Origin: a virus
Reading direction: 5' to 3' (one strand)
DNA: 20,196 bases
IMG/VR virus record: IMGVR_UViG_3300033571_003445
Span: 1 to 20,196 of that record
This document shows, one piece after another, positions 2,390 to 10,454 of the stretch. The translations under genes were made by a program, and so were the position numbers. Under the pieces are notes generated by a model that searched no databases, was not told the DNA's origin, and worked only from the letters and a program-made list of their open reading frames with translations. Numbering within the stretch: the first letter of the stretch is position 1; each line of letters opens with the position of its first letter.

Positions 2390-4693
2390 GTGGAGTTCTT
2401 AGATTTTATAGTAAACCTAGCCCCTGAGGGCGAAACCGCACTGATTGTGCGTCAAAAACCACAGCTCAAGGATCAAGAGCTGCAATTCCACGCCGATGGC
2501 GCCATCAAGTGCACCTGGCCGGCGTACTTGCCCAGCAAGTGGAAGAACAACGGTTGGGCGTGGTACGGCAACACGGCGAGCTTTGTGATCGACCGCTTCG
2601 AGGAGGGCCGCGTCTCAGCGTCCGCCGCCAACTGCGACTACGCACTGGTGATGGTGCTGGACGACGTGGGTTCGGACAAGGTGCCCAAGAAGTGCCCGCT
2701 GCCGCCCACCTGGAAAATGGAAACCAGCCCCGGCAACTATCAGTGGGGCTACGCCTTCGACGTCGACAACCAGCCCACCAAGCGTGAGTTCGCCGCCGCC
2801 ATCAAGGCCATCGCCGCTGCGGGCTACACCGACGCTGGCGCCATCAACGCTGTCCGCAACTTCCGCCTGCCAGGCTCAGTCAATCTGAAGCCCGGCAAGG
2901 ACAATTTCGCCGCGCAGCTGGTCGAGTTCACCCCCGCCCGCGCCTACACCCTGGCCCAGCTCTGCGAGGCCATGGGCGTTACTTACGACGTCGCCACGGC
3001 TGACGAGTTCCGCCCCATCCGCATCAGCGACGACGGCACTGACGACGTGCTGGCATGGCTCTCTGGCCAGGGCCTGCTGGTGTCACGCCCCAACCTCGAG
3101 GGCTGGTGCGGCATCATCTGCCCCAACAGTGCCGAGCACACCGACGGCAACCCCGAGGGCCGCTACCTGCCCACCAGCCGGGCGTTTGTCTGCTATCACT
3201 CGCACTGCGTTGACTTCGATAGCGCGGCGTTCCTCCAATGGGTTGAGGCCAATGGTGGCCCAGCCCACCGCCCCGGTCTGCGCGACGAGCTGCTGGCCGC
3301 CAAGATGGCCGGCGTGTTCGACAAGATCAAGCCCACCGAGGCGTTCCCCGACGAGGCCGCCAAGGCTATCGCCGAGGTGGAGCGCAAAGAGCTTGGCCGC
3401 ATCGACAAGGCGGCTTGGTACGAGCGCTTTGCCTACATTCAGGACGACGAGTCGTATTTCGACATGCAAGACCGCCGGGAGCTGAGCCGCGCCACGTTCA
3501 ACGCGCTGTTCCGCCACGTTAGCTGCAAGTCCATCCACAATGGCCGTCGCATCGAGGCGTCGGTTTGCTTTGACGAGAACCGCCAGGCCATGGGCGACCG
3601 CGCTCTGGTCGGTATCACCTACGCCGCTGGCGAGGGTGTGCTGGTGGCCCGCGATGGCGACGTCTACGGCAACCGCTGGCGCGACGCCAGACCGCCGATC
3701 GGGGTTGGTGGCGACATCACCCCTTGGCTGCGTCACTGCGAGGCGCTGGTGCCCGATAAGAAGGAGCGCGAGCACCTCTTCAACGTGATGGCGTTCAAGG
3801 TGCAGCACCCCGAGGTCAAGATCAACCACGCGGTGCTCCATGGCGGCACGCAAGGCTGCGGCAAGGACACCCTCTGGGCGCCGTTTATCTGGGCCGTGTG
3901 CGGTCCTCAGTTCAAAAACCGGGGGCTGCTCGACAACGATACCCTCGGGTCACAGTGGGGCTATCAGCTCGAGTCCGAGGTGTTGATCCTGAACGAGCTG
4001 AAAGAGCCCGAAGCGAAGGACCGCCGCGCCTTGGCCAACAAGCTCAAGCCCATCATCGCCGCCCCTCCCGAGATGCTGACAGTCAATCGTAAGGGTTTAC
4101 ACCCATACGACATGCTGAACCGCATGTTTGTGCTGGCGTTCTCAAATGATCCAGTTCCGATTTCATTGGACAGCCAGGACCGCCGCTGGTTCTGCGTCTG
4201 GTCCACCACCCCCAGGATGGACCCCGACGCCGCCGCCTCCATGTGGCGCTGGTACAAGTCAGGTGGGTATGAGGCCATTGGCCATTGGCTGCACCATCGC
4301 GACGTCTCGGCGTTCAACCCTTCCGCAGCGCCTGCCATGACCGAGTTCAAGATGAACCTCATCGAGCAGGGTATGAGCATGGCCGAGTCGTACCTGGTTG
4401 AGCTGATGCGCCTGCGCATGGGTGAGTTCTCCAAGGGCGTCGTGGGCTCGCCGTTTCACGCGCTGTGTGATCGGGTGGCCTCCGGGGCCCCTGCTGGGGT
4501 CAAGGTGCCCCAGGCAGCGCTGCTGCACGCGCTCACCGAGGCCGGCTGGATCAACCTGGGCCGCGTCGCCTCCGCCGACTACCCCAGCAAGAAAAACCTC
4601 TGGGCGCACCCCTCCATGGCCAATCAGAGCAAATCGGACCTGCGCCGCATGGTCGAAGAGCCCGCTACTCCGCTCATGGTGCGCGTCAAGTAG
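2390..4693 (+). CDS. Phage primase-helicase (PrimPol-like N-terminus, DUF5906/SF3 helicase C-terminus)
   Basis: A 767-residue replication protein that probably primes and unwinds phage DNA. The start is GTG, chosen because AAAAGGAG (2374-2381) lies 8 bases upstream. The N-terminal part resembles archaeo-eukaryotic-type primases: an acidic FDVDN near residue 122 and an N-F-R-L-P-G-S-x-N motif near 158-166, typical of phage primase domains. The middle has a Cys/His-containing stretch (residues about 240-280) that may bind zinc. The C-terminal half has a Walker A GTQGCGKDT (about 486-494), a Walker B-like VLILNE (about 530-536) and an N-R-M-F-V-L-A-F-S-N-D sensor region with a following DRRW, as in DUF5906/D5-type helicases. 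Length fits bifunctional phage primases. It is the last plus-strand gene before the convergent small-gene operon. Confidence 0.88.
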   Translation: MEFLDFIVNLAPEGETALIVRQKPQLKDQELQFHADGAIKCTWPAYLPSKWKNNGWAWYGNTASFVIDRFEEGRVSASAANCDYALVMVLDDVGSDKVPKKCPLPPTWKMETSPGNYQWGYAFDVDNQPTKREFAAAIKAIAAAGYTDAGAINAVRNFRLPGSVNLKPGKDNFAAQLVEFTPARAYTLAQLCEAMGVTYDVATADEFRPIRISDDGTDDVLAWLSGQGLLVSRPNLEGWCGIICPNSAEHTDGNPEGRYLPTSRAFVCYHSHCVDFDSAAFLQWVEANGGPAHRPGLRDELLAAKMAGVFDKIKPTEAFPDEAAKAIAEVERKELGRIDKAAWYERFAYIQDDESYFDMQDRRELSRATFNALFRHVSCKSIHNGRRIEASVCFDENRQAMGDRALVGITYAAGEGVLVARDGDVYGNRWRDARPPIGVGGDITPWLRHCEALVPDKKEREHLFNVMAFKVQHPEVKINHAVLHGGTQGCGKDTLWAPFIWAVCGPQFKNRGLLDNDTLGSQWGYQLESEVLILNELKEPEAKDRRALANKLKPIIAAPPEMLTVNRKGLHPYDMLNRMFVLAFSNDPVPISLDSQDRRWFCVWSTTPRMDPDAAASMWRWYKSGGYEAIGHWLHHRDVSAFNPSAAPAMTEFKMNLIEQGMSMAESYLVELMRLRMGEFSKGVVGSPFHALCDRVASGAPAGVKVPQAALLHALTEAGWINLGRVASADYPSKKNLWAHPSMANQSKSDLRRMVEEPATPLMVRVK

Positions 4694-4727
4694 GCTACGC
4701 CACTGGATCCGCCTGCGGCGTCTCCAG

Positions 4728-4754
4728 AAAAAAGGGGCCCCGATGAGGGGCCCC
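4728..4754 (-). terminator. Rho-independent terminator of the leftward small-gene operon
   Basis: An 8-bp perfect GC stem, GGGGCCCC (4734-4741) pairing with 4747-4754, has the loop GATGA. On the minus strand it is followed by six T residues (complement of 4728-4733). It lies about 20 bases past the stop of the last minus-strand gene, so it marks the operon end. Read on the plus strand it has no T tract, so it should act mainly on leftward transcripts and keep them out of the primase gene. Confidence 0.85.
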
Positions 4755-4773
4755 AAACTAGGGTCGACAACTG

Positions 4774-4836
4774 CTAAAGACCGAGGAGAACGGCCAACAG
4801 CCCCGCCAGTATAGCGGCGATTAGCGCGGCCAGCAT
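4774..4836 (-). CDS. Tiny hydrophobic peptide, one predicted membrane helix (20 aa)
   Basis: The 20-residue product contains only M, L, A, I, G and V and would form a single membrane helix. The start at 4836 is chosen because a strong Shine-Dalgarno, GGAGGAGG (complement of 4844-4851), lies 7 bases upstream and the start overlaps the stop of the preceding small gene. A longer in-frame version from 4920 (48 aa) has no good ribosome site and a low-complexity N-terminus. It is the last gene before the operon terminator. A holin-like, toxin-like or inner-membrane regulatory role can be imagined, but nothing in the sequence settles it. It may also be chance, given its length. Confidence 0.45.
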   Translation of the reverse strand: MLAALIAAILAGLLAVLLGL

Positions 4837-4925
4837 AGCGGCGCCTCCTCCGCATCGGACGGGTAGCGCGGCCCCTTGGGCTCGCGGTAGGGTGGAAGGG
4901 GGAAGGGTGGGAATGGCCATGTCAT
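4821..4925 (-). CDS. Small proline-rich hypothetical protein (34 aa)
   Basis: A 34-residue ORF whose ATG overlaps the TGA of the upstream 108-aa gene (ATGA, 4922-4925), the same coupling used by four other junctions in this operon. The first 12 residues are very rich in Pro and Phe, followed by a charged and polar stretch (RGP-like, then SDAEEAP) ending LCWPR. The codons for the EE pair form the GGAGGAGG ribosome site of the next gene, so the two frames share sequence. I do not recognise a family. The support is the position, the overlap pattern and the tight packing. No catalytic motif is visible. Confidence 0.5.
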   Translation of the reverse strand: MTWPFPPFPLPPYREPKGPRYPSDAEEAPLCWPR

Positions 4926-5248
4926 AGCTCGTCGTCCCTTTGCAAAATTGCACACTCGAGGTCGTCAATTAGCTCATGGGGCAGCATGGGCATGATGTCG
5001 ACGTCGCGCACGTAGACGTTGACGAGGGTGACGCTGGCAGGGTAGTCGGGTTCCAGTTTCATACCCGAGATGGGCTCGCGGGAACCCACCTCCTCGGGCT
5101 CGAATTCAAAGTAGCAGAGCAGCTGCACACCCTTATGGTCTAGCCAGGTGCTGTGCAACCCCATGGGCAGGGGTGGCGCGGCCAGAAATGGTACCGGCTG
5201 CACGGCCTTGGCCAGCTCATCGAAAAACAGGTTTTTTATGTGGCTCAT
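4922..5248 (-). CDS. Hypothetical phage protein (108 aa)
   Basis: A 108-residue acidic protein of unknown function in the leftward operon. It starts with ATG at 5248, overlapping the stop of the upstream gene by ATGA, with GGAGG about 8 bases upstream. The N-terminus is mixed (residues 1-30, containing a PFLAAPPLPMG loop). The rest alternates short beta-like and acidic segments (YFEFEPEEV, VTLVNVYVRDVDI) and ends in an acidic helix (ELIDDLECAILQRDDEL). No signal peptide, membrane segment or metal motif is seen. It is soluble and probably cytoplasmic. Confidence 0.75.
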   Translation of the reverse strand: MSHIKNLFFDELAKAVQPVPFLAAPPLPMGLHSTWLDHKGVQLLCYFEFEPEEVGSREPISGMKLEPDYPASVTLVNVYVRDVDIMPMLPHELIDDLECAILQRDDEL

Positions 5249-5433
5249 GCTGTGGCCCTCCGCGCTTCCTGACGCCCCTGGTCGAATAGCCGGCGCCCCT
5301 CCGCATGGTCGTCTAGGTGTTCGCTTTCCAGCAGCAGGCGCAGGCGCTGGGCCTGGGCGATCGCGTCGTTGGGCGTGCTGGCGCGCTCGAATTTATACCC
5401 GGCGTGGATGTAATCGTTTTCTGGGTGTTTCAT
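5245..5433 (-). CDS. Small hypothetical phage protein (62 aa)
   Basis: A 62-residue charged protein, starting at the ATG at 5433. A longer in-frame reading to 5583 lies wholly inside the upstream gene in another frame and is judged spurious. The chosen start overlaps the upstream stop by ATGA and has GGAGG 10 bases away. The sequence has a polar N-terminus (KHPENDYIHAGYKFER) followed by a predicted long helix rich in Arg, Gln, Leu and Glu (about residues 22-60). It is likely a small helical protein; function unknown. Its stop overlaps the next start by ATGA. Confidence 0.7.
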   Translation of the reverse strand: MKHPENDYIHAGYKFERASTPNDAIAQAQRLRLLLESEHLDDHAEGRRLFDQGRQEARRATA

Positions 5434-5765
5434 AGGTCGTGTTCCTCCGTCACTTCGGGAATGGTGGGGTCGATTTGGGGTGGGGTTCGATTCAATTCCG
5501 GGGCTATATCTAATGGCGCCAGATGCAAGCGTGCATGGTTTAGCGCGACATACGCTGTCACGTAGTCCGACGTCAGCATGCATGCCGGGTTAAATTTCGG
5601 ATAGTCGCGTTTGCTGCTGTCGTGCTTGGGGTTACCCTTGGGCTTGGCCAGTTTGGGCCCTTTGCGGCCCTTGGATTTGTCGATGATGGCCAGCAGGGCG
5701 CGCGTCGGTTCGGCATTCTCCGCTAGCAGGGTAAACGTGGCCGTTTTATGTGTCAGTGTGATCAT
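5430..5765 (-). CDS. Hypothetical phage protein with a Lys-rich segment (111 aa)
   Basis: A 111-residue protein starting at the ATG at 5765, 9 bases from GGAG. An in-frame TTG at 5780 is possible but lies on the ribosome site itself. A short beta-like N-terminus (MITLTHKTATFTLLAEN) and a helix are followed by a strongly basic stretch (KSKGRKGPKLAKPKGNPK, about residues 29-46) and a C-terminal half ending in an acidic tail. The basic part could contact nucleic acid (inference). The ribosome site and start are a copy of those of the 66-aa gene at 6224. Confidence 0.7.
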   Translation of the reverse strand: MITLTHKTATFTLLAENAEPTRALLAIIDKSKGRKGPKLAKPKGNPKHDSSKRDYPKFNPACMLTSDYVTAYVALNHARLHLAPLDIAPELNRTPPQIDPTIPEVTEEHDL

Positions 5766-6033
5766 GGTTACATTCTCCAATAGCTTTGGTGATGGCCGCT
5801 CGGGCCTGATTGAACCAATCCGGCCGGATATCGCGCGGCGCGTCTTTCATTGGGGCTGCCCATCGAAATGCGGATTCGAGCGCTGCCAACAAATCGGGCG
5901 CGGCCGCAATCAATCGCGCGTCGCGTTGATTGATTATTTTGGTTAGTTCGACGTCTCCGACGCCGACGACATATCCGTTTTCAGATGCAGCGAACCAATA
6001 TTTCAGATGCATTTCAGATGGTTTTATGTCCAT
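5746..6033 (-). CDS. Hypothetical phage protein with AAAPDLLAALE motif (95 aa)
   Basis: A 95-residue protein starting at ATG 6033, with AAGGAA just upstream. Reading further upstream to 6180 would cross the preceding gene and is rejected. Residues about 42-54 read ARLIAAAPDLLAALE, a motif I know from many small phage and prophage proteins of unknown function, where it precedes a second helix with an ARAAITKA-like end, as here. The start overlaps the stop of the 66-aa gene by 10 bases, and the stop overlaps the next gene by 20 bases. Likely cytoplasmic. Confidence 0.78.
   Translation of the reverse strand: MDIKPSEMHLKYWFAASENGYVVGVGDVELTKIINQRDARLIAAAPDLLAALESAFRWAAPMKDAPRDIRPDWFNQARAAITKAIGECNHDHTDT
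5762..5780 (-). repeat. 19-bp duplicated translation-start sequence, copy 1
   Basis: The plus-strand sequence tcatggttacattctccaa is identical to 6221-6239. On the minus strand it reads TTGGAGAATGTAACCATGA and contains the Shine-Dalgarno GGAG, the 9-base spacer and the start codon of the 111-aa gene. See the matching copy. Confidence 0.9.
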
Positions 6034-6224
6034 TCTATGTTCCTTGCAATACAGTATTGGTCGACCGCGTCGGTGACATCGGTCCCTGAAAAGTAATAGT
6101 GCAGCGCGGCCGGCCATTCGATCCGGCCCGATAGTTCCGGCCGACGCGCCAGCAGCGCATCGGAAAACTGCGCGAGCCATTCGGCCTGGCGCTGTGCTTT
6201 GGTTTGCGCATAGTGTCGTCTCAT
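6024..6224 (-). CDS. Small hypothetical phage protein (66 aa)
   Basis: A 66-residue protein starting at ATG 6224, two bases after the stop of the 45-aa membrane protein, with GGAG 9 bases upstream. The N-terminal 30 residues are basic and probably helical (MRRHYAQTKAQRQAEWLAQF). The C-terminus contains an aromatic stretch (EWPAALHYYFSGTDV) and ends YCIARNIEWT. No known domain is recognised. The longer frame reading to 6482 is Arg/Ala-rich out-of-frame noise and is rejected. Confidence 0.68.
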   Translation of the reverse strand: MRRHYAQTKAQRQAEWLAQFSDALLARRPELSGRIEWPAALHYYFSGTDVTDAVDQYCIARNIEWT

Positions 6225-6239
6225 GGTTACATTCTCCAA
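6221..6239 (-). repeat. 19-bp duplicated translation-start sequence, copy 2
   Basis: Identical to 5762-5780. It carries the ribosome site and start of the 66-aa gene and also encodes the last codons and stop of the 45-aa membrane protein. The identity ends where the two coding sequences diverge. Confidence 0.9.
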
Positions 6240-6364
6240 AGGTAAATGAACATCGGCAGCCCGAACAGCAGCGCGCACAGCAGCACGCCCAGAAAATCGA
6301 CGGCCGCGCGCCGGCGCCGGTCGACCCGATCGGCCATGTAGGGGTGTTGACGATGCTGGCTCAT
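6227..6364 (-). CDS. Small single-pass membrane protein (45 aa)
   Basis: A 45-residue protein. Residues 1-21 are polar and strongly basic (DRVDRRRRA), and residues 23-43 form one hydrophobic helix (FLGVLLCALLFGLPMF and on), ending LWRM. The positive N-terminus predicts an N-in orientation. The start overlaps the stop of the 46-aa gene by ATGA (6361-6364), and the next gene starts 2 bases after the stop. The ribosome site is weak (GGGGCT), so translation probably depends on coupling. The size and layout fit a phage inner-membrane peptide or a small holin-like protein, but no lysis partner is seen next to it. Confidence 0.65.
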   Translation of the reverse strand: MSQHRQHPYMADRVDRRRRAAVDFLGVLLCALLFGLPMFIYLWRM

Positions 6365-6501
6365 GATGTGAGCCCCGATACCCTAAAGCATTTGCCGTCG
6401 CGCATGCGCTCGACGTCAATGGTGTAGCGGCCATGCCTGGCCAGCACGCGACAGCGCTCCGGCCGGCCGAATATTTCGACAATGATGATTTCGCGTTTCA
6501 T
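6361..6501 (-). CDS. Small hypothetical basic protein (46 aa)
   Basis: A 46-residue protein with GGGGGA 7 bases before the ATG at 6501. The start overlaps the upstream stop by ATGA (6498-6501) and its own stop overlaps the next start the same way. The sequence alternates beta-like stretches (REIIIVEIFG, RYTIDVERM) with Arg-rich turns and has two Cys (C17 and C38). It may be a small beta fold. Family unknown. Confidence 0.62.
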   Translation of the reverse strand: MKREIIIVEIFGRPERCRVLARHGRYTIDVERMRDGKCFRVSGLTS

Positions 6502-6710
6502 GATGCATCCCCCAGCATGCGCGCGCATGCGCGCTCGTAGATTTCGCGTGCGTTATCGCTCAGGCTATCCACTGACAGCATGGGCGATGGTTTGAAATAA
6601 TCGGCCATACAGCACAGGCGCGCGTATTCCCGGGACCATTGGCCACCATGGCAGTGTGACAGCGCGAGATAGTAGGCTTCGCAAATGTCGAATCGGTCAA
6701 AATAGCTCAT
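6498..6710 (-). CDS. Conserved small phage protein, FDICEAYY type (70 aa)
   Basis: A 70-residue protein starting at ATG 6710 with AGGGG 7 bases upstream. Reading on to 6920 would run into the antisense of the preceding gene and is rejected. It matches a pattern I recall from many phage and prophage hypothetical proteins: SYFDRFDICEAYYLAL, then a GQWSREYARL segment, then a C-terminal LSDNAREIYERA helix. The role is unknown. There are four Cys residues (10, 20, 33, 34) but no clear metal-site spacing. Confidence 0.75.
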   Translation of the reverse strand: MSYFDRFDICEAYYLALSHCHGGQWSREYARLCCMADYFKPSPMLSVDSLSDNAREIYERACARMLGDAS

Positions 6711-6727
6711 TTGTTTTCCCCTAGTAC

Positions 6728-6765
6728 CGGACGGATTGTCCGCATGTGGCCACAGCATGGCCACA
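6728..6765 (-). other. Two adjacent hairpins in the gap below the GP88-like gene
   Basis: CGGAC (6728-6732) pairs with GTCCG (6738-6742), and TGTGGCCA (6745-6752) pairs with TGGCCACA (6758-6765); both have 5-base loops. They fill the 64-base gap between the GP88-like stop and the next ribosome site. Neither is followed by a T tract on either strand, so an RNA-stability or processing role is more likely than termination. Confidence 0.45.
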
Positions 6766-6774
6766 CACTGGCAA

Positions 6775-7455
6775 TCAGTGCAGCTCGTAAGACACTGGCG
6801 CAGCTGTCCAGCAGGCCCGGCAGCTGCCACATGCGCCGGCATTGTCTGGCGCATTGCAGCGCGTGCCATGGATCGGCGCGCCAGCTGTGTGCACATTGGA
6901 CACTGTGACATTGGCCACATTGGCCAGACTGGCCGGCATCTTGACGGGTTGATCGGGATACATGGCCGATAGGCGCACGATTAGATTTGACGGCAGCGCG
7001 CCATGCTTTGCAACGTAATCCTTGACAATGCCGTATTCACGCGTCGGCAGCCAATGCGTGCAGTCTGGCGTCAGTGTGGCCAGCTGCGCGATTAGCTCAA
7101 GATGCGCCAGGCCCTGCAAATCACCCGAATCATGATGTCGAAAATAGGCGTCGGCGCCGATCAACGAAACCATGCCAGACAGCCACAGCGCGGCAGCGTC
7201 AGCGTCGGCCATGGCCTGCCACACAGCGTCAAGCCTGGCAAATTGTGCAGGCTTGATCGTGTTTTGATACATGGAATAAAAACCCTTGTCAGCATAGCAG
7301 CTGGCGCAAATGCTGCCAGGGATTTGCGCCATCTTGAAACCAGTCTGACAGGATTCCGTCGGCAGGCTTGACGATTTGCAGGGCATTTTGCTGGTCTGCG
7401 TCAGCGTGCCACACACAGCGCGTGCGTCGGATTTGGTGATCGGTATGATTTTCAT
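6775..7455 (-). CDS. GP88-like cysteine-rich phage protein (226 aa)
   Basis: A 226-residue protein that resembles, from memory, the phage GP88 family (first named from mycobacteriophages). N-terminal cysteines lie at 15, 26, 36, 50 and 53, with C50-x2-C53-Y-A-D-K-G. A central HHDSGDLQG (about 107-115) is followed by W-L-P-T-R-E (about 135-140). A C-terminal cluster C200, C209, C212, C215 has the form C-G-x-C-R-x-C-W. The cysteines suggest a metal or iron-sulfur site (inference). The biochemical role of the family is not known to me. Start ATG 7455 has a modest AGGG site 9 bases away. The 29-base gap to the gene above keeps it in the same operon. Confidence 0.75.
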   Translation of the reverse strand: MKIIPITKSDARAVCGTLTQTSKMPCKSSSLPTESCQTGFKMAQIPGSICASCYADKGFYSMYQNTIKPAQFARLDAVWQAMADADAAALWLSGMVSLIGADAYFRHHDSGDLQGLAHLELIAQLATLTPDCTHWLPTREYGIVKDYVAKHGALPSNLIVRLSAMYPDQPVKMPASLANVANVTVSNVHTAGAPIHGTRCNAPDNAGACGSCRACWTAAPVSYELH

Positions 7456-7484
7456 GATATTGGACCCTAGTTGATTGAATTGAT

Positions 7485-7718
7485 TTATTGATATTGGCCG
7501 GCATCGTAGGCGCGCATCAGTGCGCGCTGCAGCTGGTGCGCGCTGTAGTCTGCCGGCAGCAACAGCAGCGCACGCGCGCGGATGTGGCGCGACGTGTCGT
7601 GAAATTCAACAGTGGCGTCGATATTGCCGAAATCGTCGGCCTGCTGCTCAAGCACTTGCACAACGATGCGCTGCGGGCCATCGTATGTGCGATCGGTTGT
7701 AAACTCAAAATTTGTCAT
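7485..7718 (-). CDS. Hypothetical phage protein (77 aa), first gene of the leftward operon
   Basis: A 77-residue protein starting at ATG 7718, with AGG 8 bases upstream inside CTAGG. The N-terminal half looks like beta strands (NFEFTTDRTY, RIVVQVLEQ, IDATVEFHD). The C-terminal part is helical and ends HQLQRALMRAYDAGQYQ. No domain is recognised. It is the promoter-proximal gene of the minus-strand operon. Both GC-strand alternatives in this region are frame shadows with poor starts. Confidence 0.65.
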   Translation of the reverse strand: MTNFEFTTDRTYDGPQRIVVQVLEQQADDFGNIDATVEFHDTSRHIRARALLLLPADYSAHQLQRALMRAYDAGQYQ

Positions 7719-7776: not shown

Positions 7777-7800
7777 TGTAAGGGATTGTCTTACAACAAT
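7777..7800. promoter_or_regulatory. Operator-like overlapping inverted repeats
   Basis: TGTAAG (7777-7782) is complementary to CTTACA (7790-7795) across 7 bases. ATTGT (7785-7789) is complementary to ACAAT (7796-7800) across 6 bases. The overlapping dyads lie about 60-80 bases upstream of the first minus-strand start, where a promoter and repressor site are expected. No convincing -35/-10 pair was found for the minus strand, so the regulatory call is an inference. Confidence 0.4.
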
Positions 7801-7921
7801 AAATAGGTGTTTACCCTAGGTTTTGGGTCATTGTGTGGGTTGCCATGGGTCGTCGCGTTTGGGTGCGTTTGACCCATGGCGCGCTCGAGTGAAAATGAGG
7901 GTTTTGGGTCATTTGGGTCAT

Positions 7922-8011
7922 TGATTGTTTACTAATTGATTGAATGAAAATAGTAATACTATAGTGCTATTAGGGTTTACGAGCACGTCGACGGCCAGCG
8001 ACTTAAAACCG
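7922..8011. other. AT-rich segment inside the repeat region, candidate unwinding element
   Basis: Between the first TGGGTCA pair and the first ATGACCC triplet, bases 7922-7978 are strongly AT-rich in an otherwise GC-rich neighbourhood. They contain small dyads: ATAGT-AAT-ACTAT (7950-7962) and ATAG-TG-CTAT (7961-7970). An AT-rich stretch flanked by iterons is the usual layout of theta-type origins. No DnaA box was confirmed. Confidence 0.4.
7936..7965 (+). promoter_or_regulatory. Possible rightward promoter
   Basis: TTGATT (7936-7941) and TATAGT (7960-7965) are separated by 18 bases, giving 4 of 6 and 5 of 6 matches to the sigma-70 hexamers. A transcript from here would cross the repeat arrays and reach the terminase operon. 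In an AT-rich stretch such matches can arise by chance. Confidence 0.3.
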
Positions 8012-8043
8012 ATGGCCCAAATGACCCAAATGACCCATAAACC

Positions 8044-8057
8044 CCGAACCGATTCGG
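8044..8057. repeat. Palindrome CCGAACCGATTCGG between repeat arrays
   Basis: A 14-base element, palindromic except near the centre, lies 5 bases after an ATGACCCAT array. It is a near copy of 8131-8144 (one base different), which lies at the matching place after the next such array, with a CGCGC stretch following both. Confidence 0.7.
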
Positions 8058-8072
8058 CGCGCGCCAGTGGCC

Positions 8073-8127
8073 ATGGGTCATTTGGGTCACTTGAAAATTG
8101 ATGACCCAAATGACCCAAATGACCCAT
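8073..8127. repeat. Inverted array pair able to form a long hairpin
   Basis: Two TGGGTCA units (8073-8090) face three ATGACCC units (8101-8127) across ten bases, ttgaaaattg. The inner two-unit arms match at 16 of 18 positions, so either strand could fold into a long hairpin. The same layout recurs at 8164-8209. Confidence 0.8.
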
Positions 8128-8130
8128 AAA

Positions 8131-8144
8131 CCGAACCGGTTCGG
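8131..8144. repeat. Perfect palindrome CCGAACCGGTTCGG
   Basis: A perfect 14-base palindrome 3 bases after the 8101-8127 array; partner of 8044-8057. It may be a separate protein-binding site within the origin or control region. Confidence 0.75.
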
Positions 8145-8163
8145 CCAACCGGCCTGGCGCGCG

Positions 8164-8209
8164 ATGGGTCACATGGGTCAACGAAAAACCGATGACCCAA
8201 ATGACCCAT
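8164..8209. repeat. Second inverted array pair
   Basis: Two TGGGTCA units (8164-8181) face two ATGACCC units (8192-8209) across ten bases, acgaaaaacc plus g. The arms match at 15 of 18 positions. It starts 91 bases after the equivalent array at 8073. Confidence 0.75.
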
Positions 8210-8242
8210 CGGCCATGGCCATGTGGCTGCGTGCTGGGTGCA

Positions 8243-8256
8243 TTGGGTCGACCCAA
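8243..8256. repeat. Perfect palindrome TTGGGTCGACCCAA
   Basis: Two repeat half-units fuse head to head with no spacer into a perfect 14-base palindrome, directly followed by one full unit (8257-8265). This is the right end of the repeat region. Confidence 0.8.
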
Positions 8257-8310
8257 ATGACCCAAGGCTTGCTGTCAGTTTGGCGTAAGGGAATTCGGGT
8301 TTCAGATTTC

Positions 8311-8392
8311 GGCCCCCGGGTAGGGCCCTGGGGCCGGCCGGTCCGGCGGCGGAGGGGCTGCAAACAATTTATTTTTATTTTTAATTTTTTCA
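8311..8392 (+). other. GC-rich palindromic block followed by a T-rich tract, leader of the terminase operon
   Basis: GGCCCC (8311-8316) can pair with GGGGCC (8330-8335), and GCCGG (8333-8337) with CCGGC (8343-8347). About 14 bases after the GC-rich block comes a T-rich run (8366-8390). The order resembles a terminator or attenuator before the terminase genes, but the T tract is far from the stems. It could instead insulate the operon from repeat-region transcription or hold a promoter. The remainder of 8266-8433 shows only the ribosome site of the next gene. Confidence 0.35.
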
Positions 8393-8433
8393 GTTACCAT
8401 CCGAATCACGCCATCGCGCGGCAAGGAGGAATC

Positions 8434-8919
8434 TTGTTCAAGTCAATACCGCTCACGTTGCGTGAAGTCAAAGCGACCGAAGCGACACTCACGCGCATTT
8501 ACGACGCAGCCAAGATCGGACTGCGTGGTGACAATCTGGCGCTGGCCGCCGGCATGCGGCCTGAGGAGTACCGGCGACTGACGCAGCTGGACGAGATCGC
8601 CGCGTTGGCCGAACTCAAGGGCCGCGCCGACGGCGAGTTCGAGATCAGCACCGAATTGCACAAAGCTGCCATGTCTGGCGACGCCAAGGCCGCACTCGCC
8701 ATCCTGCAAAACGTTCATGGCTGGGTGGCCAAGCAGGCCATCACGGTCGACGTCAACCAGTCGATCAGCATCACGGCAGCGCTTGCCGAAGCGCAAAAGC
8801 GCGTCCTGGACGTCATCGACGTTGAGGCCAAAACAGACCAACTGGAGAGCGACCTTGACAATCCTGTACTTGAGCATCGTGTTGCTTCTAGCGCTGTGGG
8901 CGATCGACACGCTGTATAG
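8434..8919 (+). CDS. Terminase small subunit-like protein (161 aa)
   Basis: Likely the DNA-recognition subunit of the packaging motor. The TTG at 8434 is chosen because AAGGAGG (8423-8429) lies 4 bases upstream. Reading further 5' in frame would translate the 9-bp repeats, which is implausible. Residues about 15-50 look like a helix-turn-helix DNA-binding part (TEATLTRIYDAAKIGLRGDN, then LAAGMRPEEYRRL). Residues about 72-100 carry ISTELHKAAMSGDAKAALAI and an LQNVHGW segment, which I associate with podovirus terminase small subunits. A C-terminal helix and acidic tail may contact the large subunit or portal. It sits 9 bases before the large terminase gene. The family call rests on motif memory and position. 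Confidence 0.78.
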   Translation: MFKSIPLTLREVKATEATLTRIYDAAKIGLRGDNLALAAGMRPEEYRRLTQLDEIAALAELKGRADGEFEISTELHKAAMSGDAKAALAILQNVHGWVAKQAITVDVNQSISITAALAEAQKRVLDVIDVEAKTDQLESDLDNPVLEHRVASSAVGDRHAV

Positions 8920-8927: not shown

Positions 8928-10454
8928 ATGCAGACTACCCGATACAGCGCGCAAGACGAACAAGAACTGATGGCGCGCCTGTGGGCGCCGGCGATCAAGG
9001 ACAACCCGCTGGCGTTCGTGATGTTTGCGTTTCCGTGGGGGCAGGCGGGCACGCCACTCGAGCACTTCAGTGGACCGCGCAAGTGGCAGCGCGAGGTGCT
9101 GCAACAGATCGCCGACCATATCAAAGCAAACCACGGCAAGATTGACTTTGAGACGCTGCGCATGTCGGTGAGCTCGGGGCGCGGGATCGGTAAGTCGGCG
9201 TTGGTCAGTTGGATCACGATCTGGATGCTGTCAACAAGGATCGGCTCGACAACCATCATCTCGGCCAACAGCGAGAACCAGCTCAGAAGTATCACCTGGG
9301 CGGAGATTACCAAGTGGCTGGCGATGTCGATCAACAGCCATTGGTTCGAGGTGTCGGCGACGCGGCTGATGCCGGCCAAGTGGCTGACCGAGCTGGTCGA
9401 GCGCGACCTCAGAAAAGGCACGCGCTACTGGTCGGTCGAAGGACGGCTCTGGTCGGCGGAGAACCCCGACGCCTACGCTGGCGTGCACAACTTCGACGGG
9501 GTGATGGTGATCTTTGACGAAGCCAGTGGTATCGATGACGCCATCTGGGCGGTGACTAGCGGCTTCTTCACCGAGAACACGCCGAACCGCTTTTGGATGG
9601 CGTTCAGCAACCCGCGTCGCAACACGGGGTACTTCTACGAGACGCACCACAGCAAACGCGACTTCTGGCAGACGAAGATTGTGGACGCGCGCACGGTTGA
9701 GGGCACCGACAAGCAGGTCTACAACCAGATCATCGCGGAATATGGGCCCGACTCGAGCCAGGCGCACGTTGAGGTGTACGGTCAGTTCCCCAACGCCAAC
9801 GACGACCAGTTCATTTCAGCAAGTCTGGTCGATGACGCGATGGCAAGACCCAAGTACAAGGATAACTCAGCGCCCATTGTGATCGGCGTAGACCCGGCGC
9901 GCTTCGGGGCGGACGCAACCGTCATTGCGGTCAGGCAAGGACGCGATATCGTGAAGCTGATCAAGCACCGAGGCGACGACACCATGACCGTGGTCGGCCA
10001 CGTGATCGACGCGATCGAGGAGTACAAGCCAGCGCTGGTGGTGATCGACGAAGGCGGCCTGGGGGCTGGCATCGTCGATCGGCTGAAAGAGCAGCGATAC
10101 AAGGTCCGAGGCGTCAACTTCGGCAACAAGGCTAAAAACCCGATCATGTACGGCAACAAACGGGCAGAAATGTGGGGTGAAATGCGGGAATGGTTGAAGT
10201 CGGCAAGCATACCGCTTGACAGATTCTTGAAAACTGATCTAATTTCGCCTATGATGAAGCCCGATTCGCGTGGCACGATCTTTTTGGAGAGCAAAAAGGA
10301 CATGAAAGCTCGCGGTTTAGCCTCACCGGACGCAGCAGACGCCATCGCAGTGACGTTTGCCTTTCCCGTGGCACACCGTGAGTACCGCGAACCGACCCGC
10401 GTGGCCCGCTCGTATGGGCCAAGCGCCGTAGCAACTGGCTGGATGGGAGCGTAA
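8928..10454 (+). CDS. Terminase large subunit (508 aa)
   Basis: The ATPase and nuclease that packages DNA into the prohead. Walker A is SGRGIGKS (residues 83-90), and Walker B is VMVIFDEAS (192-200) with the catalytic Glu at 198. A coupling region SNPRRNTGYFYETHH follows (227-241). The RNase H-like nuclease domain shows VIGVDPARFGADAT (318-331, D322), VVIDEGG (371-377, D374) and SPDAADAI (466-473, D468/D471), giving the acidic metal-binding set. About 508 residues is the usual length. The ATG follows the small terminase closely, with a modest AGG site. The stop touches the next ATG with no gap. Confidence is high from both domains. Confidence 0.96.
   Translation: MQTTRYSAQDEQELMARLWAPAIKDNPLAFVMFAFPWGQAGTPLEHFSGPRKWQREVLQQIADHIKANHGKIDFETLRMSVSSGRGIGKSALVSWITIWMLSTRIGSTTIISANSENQLRSITWAEITKWLAMSINSHWFEVSATRLMPAKWLTELVERDLRKGTRYWSVEGRLWSAENPDAYAGVHNFDGVMVIFDEASGIDDAIWAVTSGFFTENTPNRFWMAFSNPRRNTGYFYETHHSKRDFWQTKIVDARTVEGTDKQVYNQIIAEYGPDSSQAHVEVYGQFPNANDDQFISASLVDDAMARPKYKDNSAPIVIGVDPARFGADATVIAVRQGRDIVKLIKHRGDDTMTVVGHVIDAIEEYKPALVVIDEGGLGAGIVDRLKEQRYKVRGVNFGNKAKNPIMYGNKRAEMWGEMREWLKSASIPLDRFLKTDLISPMMKPDSRGTIFLESKKDMKARGLASPDAADAIAVTFAFPVAHREYREPTRVARSYGPSAVATGWMGA

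Follow-up and report, generated by a model that had tools for sequence, protein, structure and literature searches.

An array of 9-bp repeats in IMG/VR virus record IMGVR_UViG_3300033571_003445, analyzed over positions 1 to 20,196 and called the window here, is proposed to be a phage replication origin, bound by the C-terminal winged helix of the phage's own primase-helicase, which would act like the alpha protein of P4 or the Rep protein of Staphylococcus aureus pathogenicity islands (SaPI). We put the probability of this reading, which comes from sequence comparison, at about 0.83. In hundreds of related phages a similar array occupies the corresponding place, in several motif versions, and the motif version covaries with the wing of the winged helix. 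An earlier sequence-only reading of the window had suggested a replication origin or a master control region, with the products of a small-gene operon and the primase-helicase as candidate binders. Comparison with relatives supports the origin well and singles out the primase-helicase by its covarying wing; the operon proteins, none of them shared class-wide, drop out.

A two-sided iteron array at a conserved position

There are 16 exact copies of the heptamer TGGGTCA in the window, counting both strands, and all lie between 7824 and 8264; the expected number for the whole window is 2.5, and 16 was never reached in 100 shuffles. With up to two mismatches, TTGGGTCAT has 20 sites in 7800-8270, which agrees with the "about twenty copies" first counted in this region, while the other 19.7 kb contain 46 sites, 43 of them at two mismatches. 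The region had been called gene-free, and no family-supported gene was found in 7823-8265, where the mechanical open reading frames are translations of the repeats; a search against Rfam gave no match. Facing 9-bp tandem arrays were found where they had been reported, with plus-strand units at 7904/7913, 8073/8082 and 8164/8173, minus-strand units at 8012/8021/8030 (the first degenerate, ATGGCCCAA), 8101/8110/8119 and 8192/8201, and a single minus-strand unit at 8257. The higher-order period, given before as roughly 90 bp, is 89/91 bp (repeat families D2 and D3).

The left iteron set (7823-7922, plus strand) has TTGGGTCAT at 7823, 7904 and 7913, a weaker ATGGGTCGT at 7845, and ATGGGTCAA in the opposite orientation at 7869. 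The right iteron set (8012-8265, minus strand) consists of ATGACCCAA arrays at 8012-8038, 8101-8127, 8192-8209 and 8248-8265, with plus-strand arrays interleaved at 8073-8090 and 8164-8181, and has a higher-order repeat of about 90 bp. Between the two sets lies a gap (7923-8011) with 62% AT, compared with 44-46% for the arrays, which is a candidate unwinding element; the units that border it point inward from both sides. Multiple short direct repeats and an adjoining AT-rich element, as looked for in an iteron origin, are both present.

A search with the large terminase TerL (8928-10454, plus strand) found at least 600 relatives, and the analysis retained the best 80; they are metagenome contigs, some of them partial or possibly chimeric. 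In many, an array lies 0.45-1.2 kb upstream of TerL, just before the gene for the small terminase-like protein TerS. The repeat units are 9 or 10 bp in length, with ATGACCCAA, TTGTCCACA, ATGAC[T/C]CACA and T[T/A]GCCnACA among the classes and ATGACTCACA, ATGACCCACA, ATAGCC[C/A]ACA, ATTGCC[C/T]ACA and more as further units; a common frame, A-T-n-R-Y-Y-n-A-M-A, fits most of them. Motifs were taken from k-mer counts, expectation-maximisation motif finding having fallen onto palindromes and low-complexity sequence. The earlier proposal to look for the 9-mer and its array in related phages is thereby answered: arrays stand at the same place, and the motif varies by class. Relatives lacking the array had been named as evidence that would count against an origin, and superficially there are many, as the window's motif is missing from them, but another motif stands in its place. 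Conserved position combined with varying motifs argues for a single functional site with changing specificity rather than a chance repeat.

The architecture recurs as well. In class 1 the longest gap, with a median length of 109 bp, exceeds the array in AT content in 46 of 46 relatives, and the flanking iterons point inward in 43 of 46. Class 2 is similar but looser, with an AT-richer gap in 48 of 60 and inward flanks in 40 of 60. Class 4 departs from the pattern, its spacing being mainly 10 bp and its flanks mostly pointing in the same direction, so an exact 9-bp phase is not universal. Class-4 relatives with mainly 10-bp spacing include L133 and L166, and across the class this spacing goes with a GLLKSR wing.

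Covariation of the array with the primase-helicase wing

Columns of three aligned proteins were compared between the ATGACCCAA and TTGTCCACA classes, using 62 distinct primases, 37 with the former array and 25 with the latter. Seven of the 767 primase columns (723, 726, 727, 729, 732, 737 and 745) share no residue between the classes; no further primase column separates them, nor does any of the 161 columns of TerS or the 508 of TerL. All but 745 fall within the wing hairpin (residues 721-739; 4550-4606, plus strand), which reads R-V-A-S-[GSA]-D-x-[PQ] in the ATGACCCAA class and R-L-K-S-R-x-x-D in the TTGTCCACA class. An extended set comprised 223 loci, deduplicated and covering the wing as well as the array region. 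In three classes, the array class is the one predicted from the wing at 45 of 47, 63 of 69 and 39 of 42 loci. Dense arrays found by DNA pattern alone, at loci that include the primase C-terminus, were accompanied by a class-1 wing 38 times out of 39, some of these loci having also contributed to the class definition.

TerL provides an independent tree, on which 179 loci show at least 64 switches of motif class and 57 changes of wing class. Supported independent pairs were concordant in 15 of 15 (p = 6e-5), 22 of 23 (p = 5e-7) and 14 of 18 (p = 1e-4) for three classes. The primase tree alone gives four supported pairs, all concordant and too few for significance. Even loci with identical TerL proteins can differ in class (L249/L224 and L145/L094). 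Mutual information suggests that motif position 9 is linked to residue 729, and positions 3, 5 and 7 to residue 732; the values are uncorrected for phylogeny and serve as a lead only.

One relative is a near-twin, L212 (IMG/VR 3300021956_000078), whose TerS and TerL are identical to those of the window at 159 of 161 and 507 of 508 residues, but which has a TTGTCCACG array and another wing. Its primase-helicase is 93% identical to that of the window, with the differences concentrated at residues 716-760, while L210 and L211 have both the window's array and the window's primase C-terminus. An A/T run (8361-8395, 89% AT) in the interval between array and TerS has a similar counterpart in L212 despite the different array. 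This comparison bears on whether the array could instead be a packaging site (pac or cos) bound by TerS, whose gene (8434-8919, plus strand; TTG start behind AAGGAGGA) lies directly 3' of the array. The sites cosB and pac are often found just upstream of that gene. However, the sequence of TerS does not follow array class: no TerS column separates the classes, and in L212 a nearly unchanged TerS stands beside a different array. We therefore rejected TerS as the binder, along with any pac/cos specificity that tracks it, and regard a packaging site as very unlikely.

L212 also provides a case for linkage alone, in which the primase 3' end, the small-gene operon and the array would be swapped as one cassette and the true binder would be an unrecognised cassette gene. 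Homology between L212 and the window is gone from about 5415/5416 to 8289, resuming 25 bp behind the array, and co-transfer could mimic coevolution because wing and array flank an operon that is itself exchanged. Identity, however, drops to 0.4-0.7 in the stretch 4520-4760 and is back at 0.97 in 4760-4880, between wing and cassette; the divergence in the primase is a local trough, for which simple linkage with the exchanged region around the array does not account. Moreover, class separation is limited to residues 723-745 and is absent from residues 746-767, which lie closer to the cassette, and no operon family occurs at every locus of a class. Linkage as the whole explanation is accordingly given little credence.

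The operon (4922-7718, minus strand) lies between the proposed initiator gene and the proposed origin, and its content differs among relatives. The array stands between divergent transcription units, as would an operator array at which a bound phage protein controls both the operon and the late genes. A promoter and terminator scan found promoter-like matches at chance level, though, and no operon protein is common to all phages of one array class, the best reaching 36 of 47 and 14 of 69; operon proteins were rejected as array binders for this reason. What covaries with the array is the primase-helicase, not a repressor, and an operator role appears improbable. Were the primase-helicase itself to act on such an operator, the origin would simply have a further function, and the two explanations would not compete.

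A cluster of host DnaA boxes was considered as well, since class TTGTCCACA resembles them, being one base off the textbook DnaA box TTATCCACA, and since MW202483 carries a Bac_DnaA_C gene. That domain is found in MW202483 only; it is absent from the window, from 21 other virus contigs searched and from DSL-LC05. The window's motif ATGACCCAA is not a DnaA box (TTATNCACA), and array class tracks a phage protein, the primase wing. This hypothesis was rejected as extremely unlikely.

As a separate observation, the DnaA C-terminal-domain gene, at MW202483.1 31423-31719, is a few kb from GTTTACA repeats near 28225-28800. The primase wing of MW202483 (GMCFAPELSTKRH) is unlike every other class.

Several findings weigh against an origin bound by the wing. 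GC skew, suggested earlier as a check, gave no consistent origin signal in seven genomes. The array begins 3.1 kb behind the primase stop codon (3-4 kb apart), unlike the SaPI origin, which adjoins rep. Wing and motif classes were set after the data were seen. Wing class 3, R-[LIV]-A-S-R-x-x-[QSGIL], is mixed: its Q subgroup (RLASREYQT) has the expected motif at 27 of 48 loci, and its supported pairs are concordant in 6-7 of 11, with none in the opposite direction for any class. In one clear mismatch, L319/L023 (contig 3300032291_002154, 4.6 kb), a class-4 wing occurs together with a class-1 array; the contig has a junction at about 1400-1700, just behind the primase gene, and may be a recent recombinant or an assembly chimera.

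A predicted winged helix and comparison with known initiators

The proposed initiator (2390-4693, plus strand) combines a RepB/AEP-like (archaeo-eukaryotic primase-like) primase region with a superfamily 3 (SF3)-type helicase and the C-terminal domain. A DUF5906 match (5e-11) places the helicase in the D5/SF3 type. The RepB_primase match is weak, just under the Pfam cut-off, and is accompanied by AEP/RepB' fold matches; domain and fold searches gave no TOPRIM match. For the protein as a whole, the AlphaFold model (mean predicted local distance difference test score 79.5) matches best the C-terminal region of NrS-1 polymerase (6k9c), followed by poxvirus D5/E5, African swine fever PrimPol and SaPI5 PriRep1 (7pds).

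AlphaFold models predict the C-terminal domain, at about residues 662-756 (4373-4657, plus strand), to be a winged helix, with helices at 662-674, 689-698 and 708-717, strands at 721-726 and 735-739, and the wing at 727-734. The usual recognition helix, here 708-717, hardly differs among any of the classes. VIA-align of the domain matched mostly winged helices at modest Z (best 6.3). Foldseek with the domain alone returned no match under E 0.001, and a sequence-profile search against PDB returned nothing credible. The P4 origin-binding domain is absent among the matches listed for the domain, which carries no weight either way. Among the domain matches inspected in the fetched loci, no origin-directed nuclease mimicking the initiator, that is, a winged-helix domain in some other protein, was seen, and all of them looked primase-like.

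We infer physical binding, helicase loading and origin activity as follows. The 9-bp iterons would be bound by the C-terminal winged helix, the conserved recognition helix reading the shared part of the motif and the wing the variable bases. Several copies of the primase-helicase would assemble across the two facing iteron sets, and helicase rings would load on the AT-rich stretch between them, which would melt; unwinding and priming by the same protein would then lead to bidirectional replication. P4 alpha and SaPI Rep have been proposed to load themselves in this way, from recognition through ring assembly and melting to priming (PMC4234260, PMC7581432).

P4 alpha likewise joins a primase, an SF3-type helicase and a C-terminal winged helix, which binds the repeats of its origin (ori/crr iterons; PMC4234260), where the binding suggested here comes from sequence. 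P4, however, has a TOPRIM primase and is a satellite, whereas the phage of the window is podovirus-like and encodes structural proteins of its own. For P4, we know of no class switching encoded in the wing across hundreds of relatives. SaPI Rep (SaPI5 PriRep1) has a D5-type helicase and recognizes iterons through its C-terminus (PMC7581432), and in origins of phage-inducible chromosomal islands, as in the array here, an AT-rich region lies between two sets of iterons (PMC6092414). The SaPI origin is right behind rep, while the array is found past a variable operon, beside the terminase genes. Because primase type and origin position differ, we do not class the protein as a member of either the P4 alpha or the SaPI Rep group. 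The NrS-1 primase-polymerase, the closest solved structure, shares the DUF5906 helicase region, and sequence-specific initiation has been proposed for it, but its site is an 8-nt single-stranded template read by a helix-bundle domain and present in two genome copies, with no array (PMC8718748, PMC7102993). ORF904 of pRN1 also unites AEP primase, SF3 helicase and C-terminal winged helix (PMC4234260), but pRN1 is an archaeal plasmid with a stem-loop origin lacking iterons.

Covariation of initiator and iterons is itself already known. In the phage-inducible chromosomal island-like elements (PLE) that are satellites of ICP1, the DNA-binding domain of RepA_N varies together with its iterons and the two are swapped as modules, an origin-cutting nuclease being the probable selective force (PMC8263062), although RepA_N is an unrelated initiator, the iterons are semi-palindromes of about 30 bp, and only two groups exist. 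Lambdoid phages, with O or gp18, have initiator-specific iterons that differ among phages (PMC8022706, PMC7466680), but those lie within the initiator gene, measure about 11-20 bp, and work with a separate helicase protein. New here are the phage group, the wing as specificity element, and the number of switches, with a specificity that appears unusually readable and fast-switching. In the open-access literature, closed-access papers lying outside the search, no description was found of the array or of an origin for this primase group.

The result is a proposed origin, together with its initiator, for uncultured freshwater phages that form a large group. The more than 200 pairs of initiator and origin, in which switches recur and are concordant, amount to a natural experiment, which makes joint change of specificity in initiator and origin directly testable. 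Such rapid switching is a hint that replication origins are contested, by phage against phage or by phages against parasites, a situation for which a few satellites have been the known examples. A more tentative suggestion, to which we lean less than to its opposite, is that this very large group holds interchangeable origin specificities resembling compatibility groups. The wing, some 10-20 residues long, and the array would switch together over very short time scales under diversifying selection from rival phages, satellites or origin-directed nucleases. A simple residue-base code might then be readable, in which, for instance, motif position 9 is C where residue 729 is Arg and A where it is small, and positions 3-5 go with residue 732.

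Neighboring genes and a second repeat

Besides the primase-helicase and terminase, the window encodes a DNA polymerase, a PAPS (phosphoadenosine phosphosulfate) reductase-like protein, a portal and a scaffold. The reductase-like gene (1467-2327) sits between those for DNA polymerase and primase-helicase and may relate to DNA modification or sulfur metabolism. A GP88-family protein (PF17338) is encoded at 6778-7455 and is present in some relatives but not others. The host is uncertain, related contigs having been binned with Rhodoferax and other betaproteobacteria and also with unrelated bins. A second repeat, CACTAAC within AGTGnnCACTAACTTAG, occurs upstream of TerS at a spacing of 23-24 or 28-29 bp in L174, L176, L183, L184, L190, L200 and L204.
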